The notes under the pieces: model-generated
The model's input: the letters and a program-made list of their open reading frames with translations, nothing else
The model's database searches: none
What the model was told of the DNA's origin: nothing
Part shown: positions 752-10,959 of the stretch, one piece after another
How positions within the stretch are numbered: the stretch's first letter is position 1
How the letters are laid out: the number at the start of each line of letters is the position of its first letter
Origin: Acetobacter sp.
Lineage (GTDB): Bacteria > Pseudomonadota > Alphaproteobacteria > Acetobacterales > Acetobacteraceae
NCBI RefSeq assembly: GCF_022483985.1
Contig: NZ_JAKVME010000001.1
Location: forward strand, 1,922,001 to 1,986,000
Direction of reading: 5' to 3'
Length of the DNA: 64,000 nt
Made by a program: the position numbers and the translations under genes

Positions 752-901
752 GGGGCGATTCAGAGAGGCATAGACTCGCAGAATGACTGCACGGATTTAG
801 GTGTGCAGAAGCGGCTTTCTATGACCCAAAATGTATTCGCGTGAACCGAAATGATTATCTCTAAAAATTTATTATCGTGAGAAATCAGCCGTTTTTCAGC
901 C

Positions 902-953
902 AAATCGTGGTGGGTGCGACAGGGATTGAACCTGTGACCCCCGCCGTGTGAAG
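902..953. repeat. Left attachment repeat (partial tRNA-Val copy)
   Basis: These 52 bases are identical to 4372-4423, a shift of 3470 bases. They cover the CCA end, acceptor arm, T arm and most of the anticodon arm of the tRNA-Val gene, then the match stops abruptly. This is the signature of site-specific integration into a tRNA 3' half: the intact tRNA is on the right and the displaced fragment on the left. Confidence 0.9.
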
Positions 954-969
954 CGGCTTCCGGCATGAA

Positions 970-979
970 TAAGTCCTTG
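970..979. repeat. 10-mer TAAGTCCTTG, copy 1
   Basis: One of three exact copies of TAAGTCCTTG in the element (970-979, 1735-1744, 4252-4261). On the minus strand it reads CAAGGACTTA; here it stands four bases before an ATG that runs into the attachment repeat. It could be a recombinase arm-binding site or a copied ribosome-binding region. Confidence 0.45.
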
Positions 980-1121
980 TTTTTGTTACATATTTTTTTG
1001 ACCGATTCGGGCCGATTCATCAAGTGGTGAAGCGTATTATATCAAGGGCTGGTGATACTGTAACCTGTCTGGTGGATGGATTAGGTGAAGTCGATTCCAT
1101 CGGTGATGTCGATGTCAGACG

Positions 1122-1157
1122 GATTGATCCCACCGCTCCGCAGAGCGGAGCGTGTGG
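1122..1157. repeat. Hairpin repeat, copy 1
   Basis: The core is CGCTCCGC-AGA-GCGGAGCG, extended by CCAC/GTGG with one bulged base, and preceded by GATTGATC. A second copy at 1412-1447 differs at one of 36 positions. The GC-rich palindrome sits in AT-rich surroundings and would form a stable hairpin in DNA or RNA. Confidence 0.75.
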
Positions 1158-1411
1158 CGGTGATGTAGGATATTTCAGAAGACAGATTTGGCTGCTATCG
1201 CTGATGTCTATGCTGTGGGATGGGTATAAATCTGATTGATACCCTTGGGTTCATACCGGGTGGTTGATCCTGCTTGGTGACGGGTTTGGTGCCTATGGTA
1301 GAAACCGAACCTTAGCTGATTTACGTGGGTTATCTGCTGATGTGATTTGGCTTGGTAGTCCTTGTCCCCCTTATTGCCCCCCTTAGAAACAAGGCAGGGT
1401 GTAGTTAATCC

Positions 1412-1447
1412 GATTGATCCCACCGCTCCGCACAGCGGAGCGTGTGG
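1412..1447. repeat. Hairpin repeat, copy 2
   Basis: Matches 1122-1157 at 35 of 36 positions; the change (AGA to ACA) lies in the loop, so the stem is unaltered. A short related piece (CCGATTGAT) recurs near 1581. It could be a REP-like palindrome or a protein-binding hairpin of the element. Confidence 0.75.
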
Positions 1448-1452
1448 TGAAA

Positions 1453-1548
1453 TAGGTCCATGCCGGGTAATGGGACTGGGTGATCTGCTTTTGGTTTAGT
1501 GGGCGGATAGGCGTGTGGCCTGATGTAGGTCCATGCCGGGTGATGGGT
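1453..1548. repeat. Paired repeat TAGGTCCATGCCGGGT
   Basis: TAGGTCCATGCCGGGT followed by ATGGG-type sequence occurs at about 1453 and again at about 1527. Both copies lie just right of the second hairpin repeat. No coding frame runs through the pair. Function unknown. Confidence 0.5.
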
Positions 1549-1625
1549 GTCGCTGATGTCGATGTCCTTGGGTTCCTTAAATCCGATTGATGCTATAATT
1601 TTGATTCAGTAATGGCTTGGGAAGT

Positions 1626-1680
1626 CAATCGGAAATTATCGCTTTTATATCGGAAAATTATCGGAAATAAACCGATAATC
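1626..1680. repeat. ATCGGAAA iteron-like cluster
   Basis: ATCGGAAA occurs three times within 55 bases, followed by an inverted CCGATAAT, in a strongly AT-rich stretch. Short tandem and inverted copies like this are typical of binding sites for a replication or regulatory protein. This cluster directly precedes the first AT-core module. Confidence 0.5.
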
Positions 1681-1734
1681 AGTAACGTCATTTATCTATG
1701 CAATTTATACATATCAGCCATGCTTTTCTATAGA

Positions 1735-1744
1735 TAAGTCCTTG
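1735..1744. repeat. 10-mer TAAGTCCTTG, copy 2
   Basis: Exact copy of the 10-mer also found at 970 and 4252. Unlike those two it is not followed closely by a start codon on the minus strand (an ATG stands about 16 bases on), which favours a protein-binding role over a ribosome-binding site. Confidence 0.4.
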
Positions 1745-1774
1745 CGCTGGTAGAAAAGAAGCGCCGATGTGTTG

Positions 1775-1970
1775 ATACAGCAATTTTGTTGTATATTTCC
1801 CATTATCATCTTTATATATATTATTATTAATAATAATTTTTTAGAAATATACAGCAAAATTGATGTATGGATAGAAATAATGGCGGTCTAATCACGTTTT
1901 TCAGGGGTAATTTTTGTTTGTTTTGCTGGTTTTTTGTAGTTTCCATACTACAAAATTGCTGTATAAATGC
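1775..1970. other. Origin-like module 1 (AT core, inverted repeats)
   Basis: A 25-base arm at 1775-1799 and its inverse at 1844-1868 match at 23 positions and flank an almost pure A/T core (about 1800-1843). A further inverted copy of the arm lies around 1949-1965, next to a 7-bp palindrome at 1934-1953 (TTGTAGT/ACTACAA). Repeats around an AT-rich unwinding stretch are the usual layout of a plasmid or satellite replication origin. That it works as an origin is inference. Confidence 0.5.
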
Positions 1971-2017
1971 CGTATTCTGGTCATATCGGCATTTCCTTGA
2001 TTTAAAGCCGCTGTGTA

Positions 2018-2031
2018 ATTATTAAATGAAT
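2018..2031. repeat. Module end motif ATTATTAAATGAAT, copy 1
   Basis: This 14-mer is repeated exactly at 2452-2465, both times preceded by GCCGCT. A degenerate third copy (ATTATTAAAG) lies at 2931. The copies are about 434 and 479 bases apart and mark the right ends of the three origin-like modules. Confidence 0.6.
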
Positions 2032-2069
2032 TGGGTATAATCTATGCCTTTCATTTAATATACCGCTAT

Positions 2070-2390
2070 ACAGGTCACATGATGGTCAACTTTATCCCGC
2101 TTGTCCCGTCAACGGGATAAACACGGGATAAACACGGGATAAAAGGGACAAGACCTGATAGGCTAGAACCCTTGGTTTTCCTTGGTTTTTTCGATAGGAC
2201 GGGATAAAGGGACAGGGACAAGGGCAATTCCATATATGTATAATATATATTTTTACTTTTTTTCTTAAGAATAAAACAAGAAGAAAACATCCCGTTTATC
2301 CCGTTATGGCTGTAACCACTTGGTTTTCCTTGGTTTTTTCAGGGACAAGTAAGGGACAGCAGGAACAAACAGGTATTGCTTTGTTCCTGT
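2070..2390. other. Origin-like module 2 (GGGATAA / GGGACA boxes)
   Basis: The module starts with ACAGGTCACATGATGGTCA. It then carries several GGGATAA boxes (about 2114, 2125, 2136, 2202), inverted TTATCCCG boxes (about 2092, 2297) and GGGACA boxes (about 2146, 2210, 2342, 2352). A 22-bp direct repeat (CTTGGTTTTCCTTGG plus T-rich end) at 2171-2192 and 2319-2340 brackets an A/T core at about 2230-2290. A perfect 10-bp hairpin closes the module (arms at 2360 and 2380). The symmetric boxes around the core suggest a replication initiator target. Confidence 0.5.
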
Positions 2391-2451
2391 CCTTGCCGAT
2401 ACCAATAAGCAGAAACATAGCCCTAAAATAGCACAGGATGCCGCTACAGTG

Positions 2452-2465
2452 ATTATTAAATGAAT
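2452..2465. repeat. Module end motif, copy 2
   Basis: Exact second copy of ATTATTAAATGAAT, preceded by GCCGCTACAGTG (copy 1: GCCGCTGTGTA). It ends module 2. Confidence 0.6.
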
Positions 2466-2589
2466 CAGCTATGATCTATACCTATTAAATTATTTGAAAG
2501 TGAAAAAATGACAGGCGTACCAATTTCATCAACCGCGCGATGCTTCGGGGGGTGGTCTTGCTGACGGATGGGTATCCCGGTGGGGGGGG

Positions 2590-2900
2590 TGGTCACAGGT
2601 CACAGGATGGTCACTGGTTCAAGGGACTGCCCTGTGCCGGTGATGCGGGGGAAAAGGGGCAAAAAACACAGATTTCACTTATATATATATTTTTTTCTTC
2701 TTTTTCGTATAAAAAAAACAATATCTAATAAAACAGGAAATTATCACCGGCATCACCGGCATCACCGGCATCCCTTGTTTTTGGCCTGAAATGACCTGTT
2801 TTTCCCTTATTTGCGTGAATTATCGTTAAAATTGGTGTTATTGGTGCCGGTGGAAGCGATTTCCTTGCCCCGGCATATCACCGGCATCACCGGCATTTGC
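2590..2900. other. Origin-like module 3 (CACCGGCAT iterons)
   Basis: Begins with GGTCACAGGTCACAGGATGGTCA, closely like the start of module 2. CCGGTGATG at about 2638 is an inverted copy of the CATCACCGG iteron. An A/T core follows (about 2675-2735), then three tandem CACCGGCAT units from about 2745 and two more near 2879-2896. The architecture matches module 2, but the iteron sequence is completely different. Confidence 0.5.
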
Positions 2901-2930
2901 CCGTAATCCGATATAAAGCCCTGTCTGTGC

Positions 2931-2940
2931 ATTATTAAAG
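2931..2940. repeat. Module end motif, degenerate copy 3
   Basis: ATTATTAAAG follows ATAAAGCCCTGTCTGTGC, resembling the GCC-CTGTGT lead-in of the first copy. It ends module 3, just before the recombinase stop codon. Confidence 0.4.
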
Positions 2941-2970
2941 ACAAGACTAGCATCGACATCAATCATTTAA

Positions 2971-4248
2971 TTATAAACGCATGTGGTCTGGTATTATCCT
3001 GTCCCTGTGCTGTTCTAGTGATACATGGGAATAATGCTTTTCTATCATTGAAACTGACGTGCCTGTGTTTCTGGCAAGCAGATGGATATCTATGCCGTTG
3101 TTAAGTCCTTTGGTGATGTAGTAGTGTCTGAATGAATAACAGGTTCTTTTAACGCCACGATAATCAGTGGTTAAGTCTGCATCTTTCAATGTTTCATTCA
3201 TCTGTTCAGAAAAGGATGAAACCCTGTTTCCATTTTTATAGGTGAATAGATAGTCGTCTGTATTAGGTTTCTGTTCTGCATATAACACCTGTAAGGGATG
3301 AATAATGGACGGGTTAGGGATACAGGTTCTTGATTTGGATTTACCCTGTATCTGTATGGATAGTTTATTGTCGATTGGTTTGGTGTCAGTAGTGAAGTTT
3401 ATAATATCTGACCATTTAAGGTGTAGACATTCCGTATCACGCAAGCCGCTGTCTATCATTATTTCAGTGAAGGCCCAGAACAGGAAACGGGAATGGCGAT
3501 TGGTTTCTGTTGATTGCTGTAGGCGTTTCATGGTGATGGCACGAAACTTCGCCAATTCCTTATCTGTGAAAGATGGCCTGTTATCAGTAGATTTTGTTTT
3601 CTTTGGTTTAGTGAATGATGGAATTTGTGATAGGTGGCCTTCCTGTTTCATCCATTGAAAGAAGTCCCTTAGAATGGCGTTTTCATGCTGGACGGTGGAT
3701 TGGCTAGGTGCTTTCCGCATTGAATCCGTGACAGGTGAACGGATTAGCATCCCCGGACTTTTAATAAGGGCATCTTCTGGCCTTGCACGCCGATATTCCA
3801 AGTGGGTGATGTCCTTGCCCGGTCCTTCTGTCCAATAGGTATTACGCCATTGCTGATAGCTGGCCATTGTCTTGTCTGTAATAGACTGATTGCCAATGAA
3901 CGAACCAAAATAACGGGTCATCACTGTTTGTCTGTATGACGTTTTCTGATGTAATTCAGGTGGACGTTTTAGGGACATCCATTGTTTTATAAGTGATTCA
4001 GTGGTTTTAATCTTTAATGACTGACCTGATTCGGCTTTGTTTACTGCACCCCAATATTTTCTATAAGCCAATGACAGGGCATCAGGATAAAAGGCAGTCT
4101 TTAACGCTATCCTTTGTTGTCCATGACCGGCGATAGAAAAGCGCATTGAATAGTTTTTTGTGCCGGTGGGTATAAACAATGTGAATGGCTGAACAGGCGG
4201 CGCTTGCCCTACTGTGCTAATTCTGTGCTTACGATGATTTTCGTTCAT
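2971..4248 (-). CDS. int: Tyrosine recombinase (integrase)
   Basis: 425-residue site-specific recombinase that should integrate and excise the element at the tRNA-Val gene. A variable DNA-binding N-terminal half (to about residue 240) is followed by the catalytic domain: Arg270 in SGLRDTE, a beta-hairpin Lys near 303-305 (GKSKSR), box II YSFRHYY (Arg374; the usual first His is Tyr371), an Asn at about 395 where many family members have His, and the nucleophile Tyr406 in KHYSH. The gene appears full length and undamaged. Its ATG follows CAAGGACTTAGCT, which contains an AAGGA ribosome-binding site. It is transcribed away from the intact tRNA, 130 bp from its CCA end. Confidence 0.93.
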   Translation of the reverse strand: MNENHRKHRISTVGQAPPVQPFTLFIPTGTKNYSMRFSIAGHGQQRIALKTAFYPDALSLAYRKYWGAVNKAESGQSLKIKTTESLIKQWMSLKRPPELHQKTSYRQTVMTRYFGSFIGNQSITDKTMASYQQWRNTYWTEGPGKDITHLEYRRARPEDALIKSPGMLIRSPVTDSMRKAPSQSTVQHENAILRDFFQWMKQEGHLSQIPSFTKPKKTKSTDNRPSFTDKELAKFRAITMKRLQQSTETNRHSRFLFWAFTEIMIDSGLRDTECLHLKWSDIINFTTDTKPIDNKLSIQIQGKSKSRTCIPNPSIIHPLQVLYAEQKPNTDDYLFTYKNGNRVSSFSEQMNETLKDADLTTDYRGVKRTCYSFRHYYITKGLNNGIDIHLLARNTGTSVSMIEKHYSHVSLEQHRDRIIPDHMRL

Positions 4249-4251
4249 AGC

Positions 4252-4261
4252 TAAGTCCTTG
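4252..4261. repeat. 10-mer TAAGTCCTTG, copy 3 (recombinase RBS)
   Basis: Third exact copy of the 10-mer. On the minus strand it gives CAAGGACTTA and supplies the AAGGA ribosome-binding site of the recombinase gene. Its reuse near the left end could mean arm-type binding sites that let the recombinase control its own translation start region, or simply duplication. Confidence 0.45.
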
Positions 4262-4371
4262 ATTTTCCTTGATGTGGAAAATCTTGTGCTAGAACTACGC
4301 TAGGGTCAAAAGTGGATATATCCCTAAAATGTATAAGGGAAAAATCCAGCTAAGTGTTTGATTTTATTGGA

Positions 4372-4423
4372 AAATCGTGGTGGGTGCGACAGGGATTGAA
4401 CCTGTGACCCCCGCCGTGTGAAG
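4372..4423. repeat. Right attachment repeat, within tRNA-Val
   Basis: Identical to 902-953. Here the repeat continues into a complete tRNA gene, so this is the side where integration restored the tRNA. Excision between the repeats would leave one intact tRNA and release a circle of about 3470 bp. Confidence 0.9.
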
Positions 4424-4452
4424 GCGATGCTCTACCGCTGAGCTACGCACCC
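4378..4452 (-). tRNA. tRNA-Val (anticodon CAC)
   Basis: 75 nt with encoded CCA. The acceptor stem GGGTGCG pairs with CGCACCC, the T-loop contains TTCAATC, and the anticodon loop TTCACAC places CAC, which reads GUG. It serves as the integration target for the element on its 3' side. A different tRNA-Val, with anticodon UAC, lies at 51623-51697. Confidence 0.95.
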
Positions 4453-4612
4453 CGATTTTGCGTAGGCAGCTCATAGCCAGAACGGACAAAGAGCGCAAGA
4501 CACAAATGGGTAATTTTACGCGCCACGGAGCGAATGATCCCACTCACCCACACAAAAAGACCAGCCGTCCACGTCAGACTGAAAACGGAGCGGAAGCCCA
4601 GACCGAGCCTTT

Positions 4613-5773
4613 TTACTGAGATGCAGGAGGTGTGATCGGGACTTTTGCCACCAGAAAAGGTGGTCTGCGCATATCCTGACCGCCATGTAGCCGCGGAAGG
4701 CGGCTCCACTGGCCAAGAACGACATAGACATACCGGGAATCGGCGAAGATTCCATCCGGCCATACGAATCTCGGGTCGGAGGCAATCAGCTCAAACCCGC
4801 CATCCGGGTTACGACGAAAAATGGCATCATGATCTGCCGCTGTGGTGTAGATGCGATTCCATGGATCGGTGGCAAGACCATCCGCCGCACCTTTCTCGCC
4901 TTCATCGACAACACGCTGAGCGAGTTCGTCTGAACTGACGGAAAAATCAGCCAACTGCGCCGTAGACAGACTGTAAAGACGACGGCTGGCCAGTGGCGAA
5001 TAATAGAGCGTCTGTGAGTTAACGGAGAGTGTTATTCCGTCAGCCCCGCCAGCCGGGAATGTGGGGTGTGTGGAATCATAATGAAGCACTCGCCCATCCA
5101 GAACAGTCTGATACCCTTTATCTGGCATGGTTGACACATGCCCCGCCAGCACACGTCTCTGCCGACCTGTGGCGATATCCACGACAACGAGGGCGGGATG
5201 GCCTCCGAAGGAGCTGTCGGTAATGAACGCCGTGCCCTTCGCGCCATGCGTCAGATCGACGCGCAGATCGTTCATGTGACTGTCAGGCAGTAAAGCCTCT
5301 TTCAGAATCACGCTGGCGATGATCTGACCGCTTGTCGGACTGATACCTACAACTTTAGCCCCACCCGCAGGAATGGAGTGTCCTTTGATTTTCCCGTCAT
5401 CTATGACCCAGATATTACCCTGTGTATCCGTGGTCATCCCGTGAGGGGAGATAAGCCGGGATGCAGGATCACCTTGTGCTGATTCCGAAAAAGCCGATGA
5501 AGGAAATGGAATGAGCTGTCCATTCTTCCATTCTGCGAGCACCGGTCCCGGATGATCGCCATCATGCTTCGGGAAAGTCAGAAACAGACGATTATTGACG
5601 ACAGCAATCCCTGACGGGTCGGGAGCGTCAATCGTTGCGACAATTTCCACTGTGCCGCTGGCGCCAAATGCCGGATCAAGATTACTGGTGATCGCCGTAG
5701 AAGCGGCCTGTGTCGTGGAAACCGTAGCAACACAGAGAACACCTGTCATCAGCAGGAAATACAGCTTTTTCAT
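4613..5773 (-). CDS. Secreted yellow/royal-jelly-type beta-propeller
   Basis: 386 residues from the ATG at 5773. I chose this start over upstream codons because it opens a textbook signal peptide (MKKLYFLLMTGVLCVATVST...QA). The mature protein reads as a beta-propeller with PSGIAV, HGMTTDTQGNIWV, MNDLRVD and ATDPWNRIY repeats, typical of the major royal jelly / yellow family often labelled 'L-dopachrome tautomerase-related', related in fold to SMP-30 lactonases. It should be periplasmic. Bacterial members have no firm reaction, so I give none. It lies 85 bp downstream of another secreted enzyme gene on the same strand, probably co-transcribed. Confidence 0.75.
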   Translation of the reverse strand: MKKLYFLLMTGVLCVATVSTTQAASTAITSNLDPAFGASGTVEIVATIDAPDPSGIAVVNNRLFLTFPKHDGDHPGPVLAEWKNGQLIPFPSSAFSESAQGDPASRLISPHGMTTDTQGNIWVIDDGKIKGHSIPAGGAKVVGISPTSGQIIASVILKEALLPDSHMNDLRVDLTHGAKGTAFITDSSFGGHPALVVVDIATGRQRRVLAGHVSTMPDKGYQTVLDGRVLHYDSTHPTFPAGGADGITLSVNSQTLYYSPLASRRLYSLSTAQLADFSVSSDELAQRVVDEGEKGAADGLATDPWNRIYTTAADHDAIFRRNPDGGFELIASDPRFVWPDGIFADSRYVYVVLGQWSRLPRLHGGQDMRRPPFLVAKVPITPPASQ

Positions 5774-5858
5774 TTTTCCAAAAACAGCTTGAGGCAAAGT
5801 AATGGCAGTCAGGACAAGGTGATCATATATCATCGAAGCCTGATGTCAGGGGAAGTCA

Positions 5859-7193
5859 TCAGGGACGAGTTGTTGTTACCGTCCCGTTTTCCCATGTTTC
5901 AACAATCCTGTCGGCATCTCCGATCGCGACCGCGGGATTTCCTGAAACCACCAGAAGATCAGCCCGCCTACCAGCAGCGATCACACCTCTGTCGGAAAGA
6001 TGCAGCAGATCGGCAGCGTTCTGAGTGGCAATGTGGATGGCTGCGAGTGCTGGCACTCCTGCCTGAACAGTCAGGGCAAGTTCCCTATGTTCCGCCACAC
6101 CGGGCACGCGAAGCGGCATTGCACCGCTGTCTGTTCCAAAACCAATCTTGACGCCCGCATCGTAGAGCGTCTTAAGGTTTTGCAGATTCATCGCAAGTGA
6201 GGCCCTCGCGAAATCAGCCTGCTTGCCGGTCATGTGCTTCTGCCGCCAGACCGGATCGCTGACCTGCCGAAGCAATGGCGTCGATAGCCCGGCAAGCGTA
6301 AAGGCTGTTTGTGTCCACGGTGAATGCTCAGCCCATGCCGTGCTGGCTTCATCGAGTTCCAGGGTCGCGATATACCAGATCTGCCCGGATTTCAGCTTTT
6401 CGATCAGAGCCGGAGGGACGGGCTTGTCCCGTATTCCGTGAGCAAGAATATCCACACCAGCCGCGACAACATGTTCTGCATCGTCGAGATCATGAATATG
6501 TGCAGCAACACGCAGATTGCGCTTGTGGGACTCATCCACGACAGCGGAGATGATGTCGGGAGCCATTTTAACCGGCAGAGAGCCATCGAAGTCATCAACC
6601 CAGATTTTGACCAGATCGCTACCTTCATCCGCCATGATATTCACATCATGACGGGCTTCTTCCGCCGTTCGGGGACGGAATAGCTGATCAGCCGTGACAT
6701 TGACCGGAGGAGCCCCCTTGGGCACCCCGATCCCTTGATCCACACCGAAAAGATCGGCTGGCGTTTTGCCTGCGTGAGCGTCCCGTCGTAGCGGATCGAA
6801 CACATCCGGCGCGTTATTGCCCAGAGCTGTGACGGTCGTCACGCCGTAACGACGATACTGTTCAAGCTCGGAGATGATGGTGGCGCGCGTGTAAAACTGA
6901 GGACCGGCTACGACGCTCTCATATTGTCCGACATGGCTGTGATCGGAAATGAGACCGGGGAGCACCGTGTCGCCCGAGCGATCCAGAATACGGGCGCGAC
7001 CGGGAACACTGATACCTTTCCCGACAGCCAGAATACGGCCACTCTGCATGACCAGTGTGACATCCTCCATGGGAGGCGCGCCCGTACCGTCGATGACCCG
7101 TATATGTGTCAGGGCGATAACAGGCGCAGAGTCTGCAAAAGCGGGCACTGCCGAGAGCAGAAAGGCTGCTGTTGCCAGACTGAATTGTCTCAT
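5859..7193 (-). CDS. Secreted imidazolonepropionase-type amidohydrolase
   Basis: 444 residues from the ATG at 7193, with a signal peptide ending at PAFA. Metal-binding features of the amidohydrolase superfamily are visible: HSH at about 85-87 after the LPGLI strand, Lys at about 196 (DLVKIWVDD), His residues in AAHIHD at about 232-234 and in LAHG at about 252, and Asp in GFGTDSGA at about 355. The end carries the usual RGVIAAGRRADLLVV segment. The substrate cannot be read from sequence; relatives act on cyclic amides, dipeptides or organophosphates. An exported copy suggests use of an external amide compound. Confidence 0.8.
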   Translation of the reverse strand: MRQFSLATAAFLLSAVPAFADSAPVIALTHIRVIDGTGAPPMEDVTLVMQSGRILAVGKGISVPGRARILDRSGDTVLPGLISDHSHVGQYESVVAGPQFYTRATIISELEQYRRYGVTTVTALGNNAPDVFDPLRRDAHAGKTPADLFGVDQGIGVPKGAPPVNVTADQLFRPRTAEEARHDVNIMADEGSDLVKIWVDDFDGSLPVKMAPDIISAVVDESHKRNLRVAAHIHDLDDAEHVVAAGVDILAHGIRDKPVPPALIEKLKSGQIWYIATLELDEASTAWAEHSPWTQTAFTLAGLSTPLLRQVSDPVWRQKHMTGKQADFARASLAMNLQNLKTLYDAGVKIGFGTDSGAMPLRVPGVAEHRELALTVQAGVPALAAIHIATQNAADLLHLSDRGVIAAGRRADLLVVSGNPAVAIGDADRIVETWENGTVTTTRP

Positions 7194-7450
7194 TACAAAC
7201 TCCACGCTTTTTCCATCAACGATATAAAGCTTGAATTCGTTCCTTCAGAGACGTGTGGAAAAATGACTTCAGGCAACTATAGCAGGGCCGCTTTGACAGC
7301 CCACCAAACCTGACAGTGACAAAATTCCAGCCACACAAACCATTTTCCGAATACATTCAGCTCGTTCCGGTCTTCATGGCAGAAGCAGGAAACAAGAGTG
7401 TCGGAAAGGCTAAGCTGGTTTCACGACAAGCTTACAGTTATCCGAATCTC

Positions 7451-8257
7451 TCAGTTATTGCCAGATGAAATACGCTTCTGAGATCCGTGGAGCGCCCAGA
7501 ATTCCGAGAGTTTTCTGAATTTGGCAGCCGCCGCATCCGGCGGAAGATAGGAAATCAGAACAACCTTGGCTTCCTCCACATGATCGGCGGCGATGAGGAG
7601 AAGGGCATAATTTTCCCGCGTCCGCGGCGCTGCATCGCCTGTGATGGCATATGGCTTGATGATGGCCAGACCTTTGTAGACATCTCCTGACAGGCCAATG
7701 GAAAGACCGAGATTGACCTCAGGCGAAACCATACTGGGATCAATCTGAATCGCCCGCTTATACTCGGCCTGCGCTTCGGCGTAATGACCGTTCAGATCCA
7801 GAGCCACACCATAATCATCAACGATATGTGGGTCGTCAGGATAGAGCTTGACCATATTTTCCAGAATGGTCAGAGCTGTCTCAGGCTTGCGGCGCATGTA
7901 TATTTTGACAAGCCCCATCCAGCCATCCTTGGAATCATGATTGATTCCGATGATTTTCTTGTAAAACTCGATGGCAGCCGTTTCTCTCCCCAATGCCTCA
8001 TGCGTTCTGGCGAGCCTGAGCAGAACGGCGGGATTGTTGGGATAACGCTGGTTCAGTTCAATCAACTGCGGGAGTGCGCTTTCCTCTTGGCCGTTTTGCA
8101 CTTCGATATCCGCAACAGCGAGTTGTCTGTCCACCGTCGCCGGTGAATGAGAACAGGCGGCCAGTAACAGGCATCCGATGAGGCCTGCGTGGCGTGTTAA
8201 TAGTTTCAACTGAATAACCCTTTGATTTAAAGCTTTTTGATAAAGTTTGAAACTCAA
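7451..8257 (-). CDS. TPR lipoprotein, TadD-like
   Basis: 268 residues. A leader ending LLLAAC gives a clear lipobox with Cys at about residue 35, so the protein should be anchored to a membrane on the periplasmic side. The rest is helical tetratricopeptide repeats (ALPQLIELNQRYPNNPAV, AEAQAEYKRAIQIDPS and others), the arrangement of TadD-type pilus assembly lipoproteins. No other tad/flp genes are nearby, so the role in pilus assembly is unproven; TPR lipoproteins also serve outer-membrane assembly and secretion. It has its own upstream gap and appears monocistronic. Confidence 0.7.
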   Translation of the reverse strand: MSFKLYQKALNQRVIQLKLLTRHAGLIGCLLLAACSHSPATVDRQLAVADIEVQNGQEESALPQLIELNQRYPNNPAVLLRLARTHEALGRETAAIEFYKKIIGINHDSKDGWMGLVKIYMRRKPETALTILENMVKLYPDDPHIVDDYGVALDLNGHYAEAQAEYKRAIQIDPSMVSPEVNLGLSIGLSGDVYKGLAIIKPYAITGDAAPRTRENYALLLIAADHVEEAKVVLISYLPPDAAAAKFRKLSEFWALHGSQKRISSGNN

Positions 8258-8577
8258 ACTAGCCGGTGAATGTCAACCACCTGTAAACAAACCCACGCAT
8301 TTTGATAAGATATTCGGGAAGTCGGAGGACTGGCTGACTTCTGCGGATTTTCGGACATAAAGCCGATGCCCTGTCAGCGGGTCAGAGCAGACACAACCTG
8401 TGCAGTATCCCAGACGCCCTGCCCGCGACAGGCTCGCACAGGACGAAGTCCGGTTTCGGTAGCGCAGGCGCACTCCCATCATCCTGAAAGTCCACAAAGC
8501 GGAATACATTCAGCAGAAGCGTTTAATAGATTCCATATCTTATAATCTGTTTTCGAATGAAGGGGTAAACCGGTGCG
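8258..8577. other. Intergenic stretch with long inverted repeat
   Basis: No convincing gene. A minus-strand frame of 78 codons is open, but it has no recognisable protein character. The plus strand carries CTGTCAGCGGG (around 8372) and CCCGCGACAG (around 8425), which could pair into a stem around a ~45-base loop. A structured RNA is possible; I compared it by eye with cobalamin riboswitch and SRP RNA patterns and could not fit either. Confidence 0.3.
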
Positions 8578-9309
8578 TCACAACCGCCCCAACTGCTTCA
8601 GACTGGCCCAACTTCCTCCATGCAGCGCGAACACATCGTGCAGCGTCATGGCAAGAAAGCCACCAGCTCTGACCAGTTCACGCGCCAGAGGCTCGTCCAG
8701 CCCAATAATTTTTTGCGGCTCGGCCCCCTCACCGCACAGACGGATCAGAATCAGCGCGGTCGCATGGACTTCCAGAGCCCGCCGGAGAATATCCGCAGCC
8801 TCCTGCTGGGTCTCCCTCCCCTGACTGGATGGTCCGGGCAAGGCCTCGTCCGCCAGAAGACGGTTTTTATTATCGAGAAACAGCACACGCAGTTGCCCCG
8901 GCACAGCCCCTTCCAGAGCGGTATCGAAATATCCGAGCAGAGCTTCCCAGTTTCCCAGATGAGGACGTTCCCTCGCCTCCGCTCCCCCAAGACGCTGGGC
9001 CGCCAGCGAGGAAAGTCTGAGAGCTGCGATACTGTCACTGTTCAGTCCGGCAGTTTTCAAAGCCGCAACCGGCGCGGACAGAACGCCCGCGAAAGAACCG
9101 AACTGATTGATCAGAGCTTTTGCCAGCGGCTTCGTGTCGCCACGCTGAACGCCACAGAACAGCAGCATCTCCAGCAGTTCATAATCAGCCAGAACAGACG
9201 CGCTGCGTGCGATCACACGCTCCCGCATTCTCCTGCGATGGCCATAAGGCCCCGTGCTCGCGAATGGGAGCGTCTCATCTGGACGGGAACTGGATGGGAA
9301 GCCGGGCAT
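8578..9309 (-). CDS. radC: RadC-family protein lacking JAMM metal ligands
   Basis: 243 residues with the RadC/UPF0758 plan: an N-terminal helix-hairpin-helix-like part (MRERVIARSASVLADYELLEMLLF, GSFAGVL, about 28-100), then the JAB/MPN domain (RVLFLDNKNRLLADE, about 141-155). In the family the zinc site is HNHPSG followed later by Asp. Here the equivalent stretch (about 188-195) reads LIRLCGEG and the later site reads LHDVFALHG, so both histidines of the HxH pair are gone. The domain can fold but should not be a metallopeptidase. The historical 'DNA repair' label for RadC is itself doubtful. Confidence 0.8.
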   Translation of the reverse strand: MPGFPSSSRPDETLPFASTGPYGHRRRMRERVIARSASVLADYELLEMLLFCGVQRGDTKPLAKALINQFGSFAGVLSAPVAALKTAGLNSDSIAALRLSSLAAQRLGGAEARERPHLGNWEALLGYFDTALEGAVPGQLRVLFLDNKNRLLADEALPGPSSQGRETQQEAADILRRALEVHATALILIRLCGEGAEPQKIIGLDEPLARELVRAGGFLAMTLHDVFALHGGSWASLKQLGRL

Positions 9310-9375
9310 GAACAGATTCTGTCACTGAACGTACTGAATGCCAAGACAGCGGGCTGATACCGTCTTTTCGTCAGA

Positions 9376-10959
9376 TCAGTGAACTGCTGTCGGCTTCCCT
9401 CCACTTTTCATCTTTGAAAGCAGAAAACAGAACGGAACGATGCAGAAGGCGGCGATTCCAAAAATCATGAAAGCTTCATTGTACGCCAGCATGGCGACCT
9501 GCTGACTGAAGTCCGTAAACAGGTGATGTGTCGCTAGCGCGCTCGCTTGCGGCTGATGATTATGATCGAGGGCGACCTGCCGTCCACGCGCCAGATAGTC
9601 ATTGTAAGGCTGGTGAAACGGCGTCATCCAGTGAACCATATCAGACTGGTGCGCCTGCCGACGCTCAATGATCAGAGCCGTCGCTCCCGAGATACTCAAC
9701 GAGCCCAGAAAATTCCGCACCATCGAAAACAGTGCCGAAGCATCCGCGTTCATGGAACGCGGCAGGGTCGCATAGGCAATCGTGGACAGCGGCACAAACA
9801 GAAAAGCCAGGCATGCGGTCTGGCTCATCCTGAAAAACACCAGAGACTTGAAATCAGTCGTGGGCGTAAGATTCGCCGACCAGAACAGTGAGCATCCCAT
9901 CAGCGTGAAGCCGAGCGCAATGACCGTGCGGATCGGTACCAGTCCCATCAGCTTTCCCACGATGGGAATCAGGATGATCATGGCGATACCACCCGGTGAC
10001 AGCACAAGCCCTGACAGGGTGGCCGTATACCCCATCACCTGCTGTGCAAACTGAGGCACGATAATAGCGGACGAATAGAGCAACGCGCCCATGGCGCCCA
10101 TCAGGAAGGTTGCAACCGCAAAATTGCGATCCCTGAAAACATTGAGGTCTACAGCCGGACGCTTCGCTTTCAGCAGCCAGATGATGGCGCCGATGATGCC
10201 AATCGCCGCCAGCACCGCCATGATGCAGATGAAGGTCGAGCCGAACCAGTCATCATCCTCGCCACGATCGACCATGATCTCAAGACAGCCGAAGCCGAGG
10301 GTGATCAGGCTGATGCCGATCACGTCAAACGGCTCACGGCGCTTCTTCGCCCAAGGCGGATCTTCCACAAGGAACCCGACGGCGATCGTGGTGAGAATAC
10401 CGAACGGCACGTTGATGAAGAAAATCCAGCGCCATGAGAAATTGTCGGTGATCCATCCACCCATCGTCGGCCCAAGCACAGGCCCGACGACCGCCGCAAT
10501 GGCCGTCAGCCCAAACGCGGCCGCCCGTTTCTCCGGCGGGAACACGTCAAGGATGATCGACTGCTGGTTGGGCTGAAGCCCGCCACCGAAAAACCCCTGC
10601 ATCAGGCGAAAGAAAATCAGCTCGCCCAGACTGGTGGAAATGCCACACAGGAAGGATGTTACGGTGAACATCCCGATACAGACCATGAAATAGAGCTTCC
10701 GGCCAAACAGTTTTCCAAGCCAGCCGGAAATGGTCAGCACGATGCCATTGGCCACAAGATAGGATGTGAGCGTCCATGTGGCGTCGTCATATGTACTGGA
10801 GAGACTGCCGGCGATATGCGGCAGCGATACGTTCACGATGGTCGTGTCCAGAATCTCCATGAACGCCGCCATGGTCACCACGAAAGCGACGAGCCACGGA
10901 TTGTATTTTGGCTTCCAGTTCTCGTCCTTTTTCTCGACGTCGCTGGAGGCCGCGCTCAT
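9376..10959 (-). CDS. emrB: EmrB/QacA-type drug efflux transporter
   Basis: 527-residue inner-membrane transporter of the DHA2 major facilitator family with 14 predicted membrane segments. Motif LDTTIVNVSLPHIAG lies near the N-terminus, then GWLGKLFGRKLYF (motif A) and a motif-C-like AAVVGPVLGPTMGGWI stretch. With the membrane fusion protein encoded just upstream (4-bp ATGA overlap) and an outer-membrane channel from elsewhere, it should export hydrophobic drugs or uncouplers using proton entry. Substrates cannot be read from sequence. Confidence 0.93.
   Translation of the reverse strand: MSAASSDVEKKDENWKPKYNPWLVAFVVTMAAFMEILDTTIVNVSLPHIAGSLSSTYDDATWTLTSYLVANGIVLTISGWLGKLFGRKLYFMVCIGMFTVTSFLCGISTSLGELIFFRLMQGFFGGGLQPNQQSIILDVFPPEKRAAAFGLTAIAAVVGPVLGPTMGGWITDNFSWRWIFFINVPFGILTTIAVGFLVEDPPWAKKRREPFDVIGISLITLGFGCLEIMVDRGEDDDWFGSTFICIMAVLAAIGIIGAIIWLLKAKRPAVDLNVFRDRNFAVATFLMGAMGALLYSSAIIVPQFAQQVMGYTATLSGLVLSPGGIAMIILIPIVGKLMGLVPIRTVIALGFTLMGCSLFWSANLTPTTDFKSLVFFRMSQTACLAFLFVPLSTIAYATLPRSMNADASALFSMVRNFLGSLSISGATALIIERRQAHQSDMVHWMTPFHQPYNDYLARGRQVALDHNHQPQASALATHHLFTDFSQQVAMLAYNEAFMIFGIAAFCIVPFCFLLSKMKSGGKPTAVH

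Follow-up and report, generated by a model that had tools for sequence, protein, structure and literature searches.

A small tRNA-Val island of Acetobacter with an integrase, three origin-like modules and no replication initiator of its own

In a stretch of 64,000 nucleotides from the genome of Acetobacter sp. (contig NZ_JAKVME010000001.1, positions 1,922,001 to 1,986,000), which we refer to as the window, a mobile island is inserted in tRNA-Val(CAC). It is bounded by an exact 52-bp attachment (att) repeat and is therefore about 3.47 kb long (coordinates of all features are given in Table 1). Its sole convincing gene encodes a tyrosine integrase, which is uninterrupted and is read in the direction away from tRNA-Val. 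To judge from its family, this enzyme most likely excises the element from the tRNA gene. The non-coding half of the island contains three blocks of repeats (blocks 1–3). No stop-free frame between positions 953 and 2970 exceeds 95 codons, and neither the list of open reading frames (ORFs) nor a tblastn search revealed traces of a helicase, a resolvase or a second integrase in this region. A primase-helicase, whole or degraded, is absent from the element, as are an alpha homologue and AlpA. Remnants of an integrase or of att sites between the blocks were not detected by blastn self-comparison or tblastn. The original prediction had stated that no initiator is encoded here, and this holds, there being neither an ORF nor a remnant of one in 953–2970. 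That the blocks might be degraded coding sequence is ruled out, as tblastn detects no helicase or integrase remnants in them.

The repeats which the prediction had described for blocks 1–3 were all recovered at their positions, and their significance was assessed by comparison with 1000 dinucleotide shuffles. The three 50-mers with the lowest G+C content in the entire window coincide with the three A/T cores, at 1802 (6%), 2226 (12%) and 2679 (12%), and each core has iterons of its own family on either side. Block 1 has two inverted arms of 25 nucleotides which are 92% complementary. It is the weakest of the three, though still above chance: its threefold 9-mer was reached in 2 of the 1000 shuffles; its two strong 13-mer copies were obtained in none. 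In block 2, GGGATAA occurs six times, at 2092 (minus strand), 2114, 2125, 2136 and 2201 (plus strand) and 2296 (minus strand), together with six GGGACA boxes; the sixfold occurrence of CGGGATAAA was not matched by any shuffle. The same is true for the seven copies of CACCGGCA in block 3, where ACCGGCA is located at 2635 (minus strand), 2746, 2755 and 2764 (plus strand), 2845 (minus strand), and 2880 and 2889 (plus strand). The innermost iterons of blocks 2 and 3, on both sides of the core, have the G-rich strand directed towards it. These two blocks also open with a common segment, as had been claimed: the 19-mer ACAGGTCACAnGATGGTCA is found at 2070 and 2595 in copies identical at 18 of 19 positions. 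Their cores are 78% alike over 37 nucleotides. The architecture of an origin is complete in all three blocks.

A similar architecture was found in other mobile elements. For these comparisons we used 49 genomes of the genus and 397 genomes of the family, each collection containing one genome per species. Relatives of the integrase are present in 15 of the 397 family genomes, nearly all of them adjoining a tRNA gene. They belong to islands of 5.7–8.4 kb, most of which encode a primase-helicase of the DUF5906, VapE or DEAD type. These primase-helicase genes often adjoin an AT core which has inverted iterons on its two sides, and the iteron differs island by island (GGGAGATA in L068, CTCATTTC in L069, GACCAAA in L182 and GGTGTCAC in L183). 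Of 63 primase-helicase loci, 12 have an AT core surrounded by six or more copies of one 8-mer, which lie no further than about 1.5 kb from the helicase domain; among 189 shuffles there was no such case. The heptamer GGGATAA of block 2 surrounds AT cores beside DUF927 primase-helicases in three viral contigs (L282, L300 and L337), two of these proteins having a Toprim domain as well. The primases which these arrays adjoin in the viral contigs are of the P4-alpha type. The origin-like interpretation of the blocks is strengthened by these neighbourhoods and by the agreement with the origins of phage-inducible chromosomal islands (PICIs), which consist of two iteron sets flanking an AT-rich region, for example in EcCICFT073 and in the ori of the Staphylococcus aureus pathogenicity islands (SaPIs) (PMC6092414). 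Judged by its sequence, each block is built like a primase-helicase-type origin and would be expected to work as one.

Apart from the iterons, the island contains two conserved non-coding segments, boxes A and B. Box A corresponds to the motif which was originally proposed to end all three blocks. It is a real repeat at 2015–2049 and 2449–2483 (83% over 35 nucleotides, none expected from shuffles); the third copy, at 2931, is negligible, as it hardly extends beyond ATTATTAAA. Both boxes recur in a sister element of another species of the genus (L073, in genome G007). This is an island of 3.2 kb, located at the beginning of rlmJ between att repeats of 22 bp, which contains an integrase and one origin-like module with TATCGGC iterons, again without a helicase. 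Box A is shared between window positions 2440–2503 and 2017–2070 and L073 positions 8733–8795, with a further copy near 8655–8700. Because box A directly precedes the origin core in L073, it more plausibly heads a module than closes the preceding one. It has a TATAAT-like core, and one or two copies are located directly ahead of an origin module. Box B was found in two of the 49 genus genomes, those of the window and of L073. Outside these two elements, neither box occurs in the genus genomes, and box A is also absent from the 397 family genomes. In viral contigs the boxes were not found, save for two box A matches within a phage gene.

The integrase of L073 shares 62% identity with its counterpart in L182, an island of 6.2 kb which has the same att target (rlmJ) and carries a helicase, but only 37% with the integrase in the window. 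The nearest counterpart of the L073 integrase thus belongs to an island with a helicase, and neither the lack of a helicase nor the common non-coding core tracks the integrase lineage. The comparison indicates that a common non-coding core was joined to two different integrases, which speaks against one recent deletion. In L073, a hairpin-ended insertion of about 110 bp at ~7090–7200 (CACGTGGAGGGTTC...GAACCCTCCACGT), which resembles a miniature inverted-repeat transposable element (MITE), breaks the N-terminus of the integrase.

Table 1. Features of the tRNA-Val island, with positions in the window
Feature	Position	Strand	Basis and remarks
Distal att repeat	902..953	.	blastn self-match, 100% over 52 bp versus 4372-4423; takes in 3' part of tRNA-Val
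36-bp repeat with palindrome CGCTCCGCAGAGCGGAGCG	1122..1157	+	second copy 1412-1447, 97%; near distal att
Box B, conserved non-coding	1284..1385	+	L073 9262-9364 minus; 70% over 105 nt, local score 61 versus <=31 in shuffles
Block 1 left iteron/arm ATACAGCAATTTTG	1775..1799	-	repeat listing
Block 1 AT core	1800..1848	.	6% G+C, lowest in window
Block 1 right iteron/arm	1844..1868	+	third copy 1945-1964
Box A copy 1, imperfect palindrome around GGGTATAATCTATGCC	2005..2062	+	hairpin z -3.75; matched in L073
Block 2 leader 19-mer ACAGGTCACATGATGGTCA	2070..2088	+	direct-repeat listing
Block 2 left iterons, GGGATAA x5 and GGGACA x4	2092..2220	+	0/1000 shuffles
22-bp direct repeat, block 2	2171..2192	+	exact second copy 2319-2340
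Block 2 AT core	2226..2285	.	12% G+C
Block 2 right iterons, inverted TTATCCC then GGGACA x2	2290..2360	-	repeat listing
Box A copy 2	2440..2503	+	aligned to L073 8733-8795
Block 3 leader 19-mer	2595..2613	+	direct-repeat listing
Block 3 left iteron, inverted	2635..2652	-	repeat listing
Block 3 AT core	2675..2735	.	12% G+C
Block 3 right iterons CACCGGCAT	2742..2896	+	tandem x3 2745-2771, x2 2879-2896; 0/1000 shuffles
Tyrosine integrase, 425 aa, uninterrupted	2971..4248	-	PF00589, E 3e-11; sole convincing gene of element
tRNA-proximal att repeat, within tRNA-Val(CAC)	4372..4423	.	blastn self-match; tRNA 4378-4452 minus by ARAGORN

A search for RNA families yielded only the tRNA above threshold. 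STnc410, an enterobacterial small RNA, scored 18.8 bits at 2136–2288 in block 2 (gathering threshold 50) and is not supported; no hit reaching the gathering threshold was found in L282 or L337. Box B gave no firm structure as an RNA (fold z-scores of −1.25 and −2.26).

The explanation which we prefer, with confidence evenly balanced between acceptance and doubt, is a non-autonomous satellite island whose origins are fired in trans by the primase-helicases of other elements. For its replication it probably depends on proteins of other mobile elements, of which there may be several different ones. The integrase would excise it from tRNA-Val as a circle, which would replicate from one of its three origins of the PICI/P4 type, each with an AT-rich stretch between iteron sets at which the strands melt. 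An iteron-binding primase-helicase of another mobile element, supplied in trans, would melt the AT core and start replication. The different iteron families may correspond to different helpers (islands, prophages or phage-plasmids with primase-helicases of the DUF5906, VapE or DUF927 type), each firing one block. Somewhat more tentatively, we propose that the element belongs to a family of integrase-only satellites with arrays of different origins, replicable by several unrelated primase-helicases of phages and satellites; such multi-helper origin mimicry would make it a parasite of satellites.

A number of results weigh against this proposal. The arrays of blocks 1 and 2 occur only in this element when its own genome and the 49 genus genomes are searched, single further matches being due to chance, and in the 397 family genomes an AT core with tandem block 3 iterons is confined to this element. 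The iteron families were not found in the Acetobacter phages phiAP1 and phiAX1, and no helper origin with matching iterons was found in the genus and family genomes searched; with one genome per species, helpers in other strains, plasmids or lytic phages escape this search. The use of helpers is therefore inferred and not observed. As a resident helper, the sole DUF5906 protein found in the own genome was rejected, since no matching iterons are located nearby. Further, the closest relative of the integrase, L065, is frameshifted and lies beside a transposase like that of an insertion sequence (IS), and the interrupted N-terminus of the L073 integrase likewise illustrates that such elements do decay. 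No packaging or transfer function was identified in the element, and only two helicase-less elements of this type are known. The suggestion in the original prediction that several helper replicases use the element is the best fit, but none of the iteron families was found beside a replication gene in the own genome or the genus or, for block 3, in the 397 family genomes.

The DUF5906 protein belongs to a locus 170 kb away (L153; G000:C1, about 1746.7–1755.5 kb; 778–9442) which resembles a capsid-forming PICI. Its ORFs correspond to an integrase, an AlpA-like, a portal-like and a capsid-like protein, and a D5_N/DUF5906 primase-helicase, only the last assignment having been checked with Pfam. 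This island could act as a helper. Similarity of the block DNA to phages, plasmids, viral contigs and 100 relatives was confined to chance matches, and two weak genome matches of the blocks proved to be short chance matches at unrelated loci. The tandem 18-mer of block 3 occurs in 61 viral stretches and eight genomes; apart from the element itself, none has three or more copies at a core of similar AT-richness. The 20-mer of block 1 is absent from the viral contigs searched.

The main and strongest rival, which we consider unlikely, regards the element as a non-replicating, decaying relic: it would derive from one or several islands which had a helicase, with this gene deleted and the orphan origins gathered by recombination at common leaders. 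The leader segments common to blocks 2 and 3 would favour such recombination, the failure to find a helper would follow, and frameshifted, IS-interrupted (L065) or otherwise interrupted (L073) integrases are what a decaying lineage would present. However, no helicase, integrase or att remnants are located between the blocks, and the integrase frame, the exact att repeats and all three origin architectures of the window element are intact. Also, boxes A and B are 70–80% conserved between elements whose integrases are only 37% identical, and none of the helicase-bearing islands examined contains them.

It is improbable that the blocks are cis sites of another kind, such as mimics of the origin of transfer (oriT) for conjugative helpers, packaging sites (cos/pac), or operator or promoter arrays. 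Integrative oriT-only elements without a relaxase (iOriT) are known (PMC11389934). The best candidates for such a function are not the iteron blocks but boxes A and B, which are conserved and unexplained; box A is an imperfect palindrome, and its copies have TATAAT-like cores. The two boxes may represent a packaging site, a transfer origin or an RNA. For the blocks, the position of iterons on either side of the region's three AT-richest points corresponds to the architecture of an origin, there is no gene downstream on which operators could act, and the boxes lack counterparts in viral contigs. Still less probable is a decoy function, also raised originally, in which the arrays would titrate the initiators of rival phages or satellites and thereby shield either the host or the element from them: several iteron families in one element without its own initiator would suit it, but binding sites would suffice for titration, so that the complete AT core in each module is left unexplained, the 3–7 iterons per family are no more than in ordinary origins, and no matching competitor was found.

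The element can be compared with several known systems. Like PICIs, it combines iterons on either side of an AT-rich region with a specific att site and a tyrosine integrase. PICIs, however, encode their own pri-rep beside a single ori, as well as AlpA/Stl and further genes, whereas the element has three origins and no initiator. PICIs are also defined by att sites that prophages of the same species do not use. Acetobacter phage phiAP1 (LC644972, 41831–41894) carries the tRNA-Val att core at 97% identity, as at window positions 902–953, a comparison which applies at the genus level only; phage and mini-island probably compete for one tRNA-Val site. Phage-inducible chromosomal minimalist islands (PICMIs) of Vibrionaceae, among the smallest satellites, always contain an integrase, AlpA and a primase and are located next to fis (PMC10803314). 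The element shares with them the reduced size, the integrase and the lack of capsid genes, and the PICMI primase is of the DUF5906 type as in the related islands of the element. It differs by its location in tRNA-Val and by having neither AlpA nor a primase of the DUF5906/DUF3987 type. iOriT elements and mobilizable genomic islands (MGIs) similarly combine an integrase with a cis site exploiting a protein of the helper (PMC11389934), but that site is an origin of transfer, on which a relaxase acts, and not of replication.

The element also resembles P4-type satellites in its G-rich iterons and AT core, and the block 2 iteron is found beside DUF927/Toprim primases. In P4 origins, G-rich iterons around an AT core are recognized by a primase-helicase of the alpha/D5 type. 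P4 encodes alpha and about ten further genes and has one ori plus crr, whereas the element lacks alpha. Phage satellites described so far, to our knowledge, encode the initiator for their replication themselves. No island with an integrase as its sole gene, several different origins and no initiator turned up in the open-licence PMC papers searched. The origin architecture is already known; the combination of an integrase as the only gene with three origins and no initiator represents a new variant of a PICI-like island.

If our interpretation is correct, an integrase with an array of borrowed origins would lie below the PICMI minimum, which keeps a primase. Satellites could then broaden their helper range by collecting origins, and each iteron family should name the primase-helicase of its helper.
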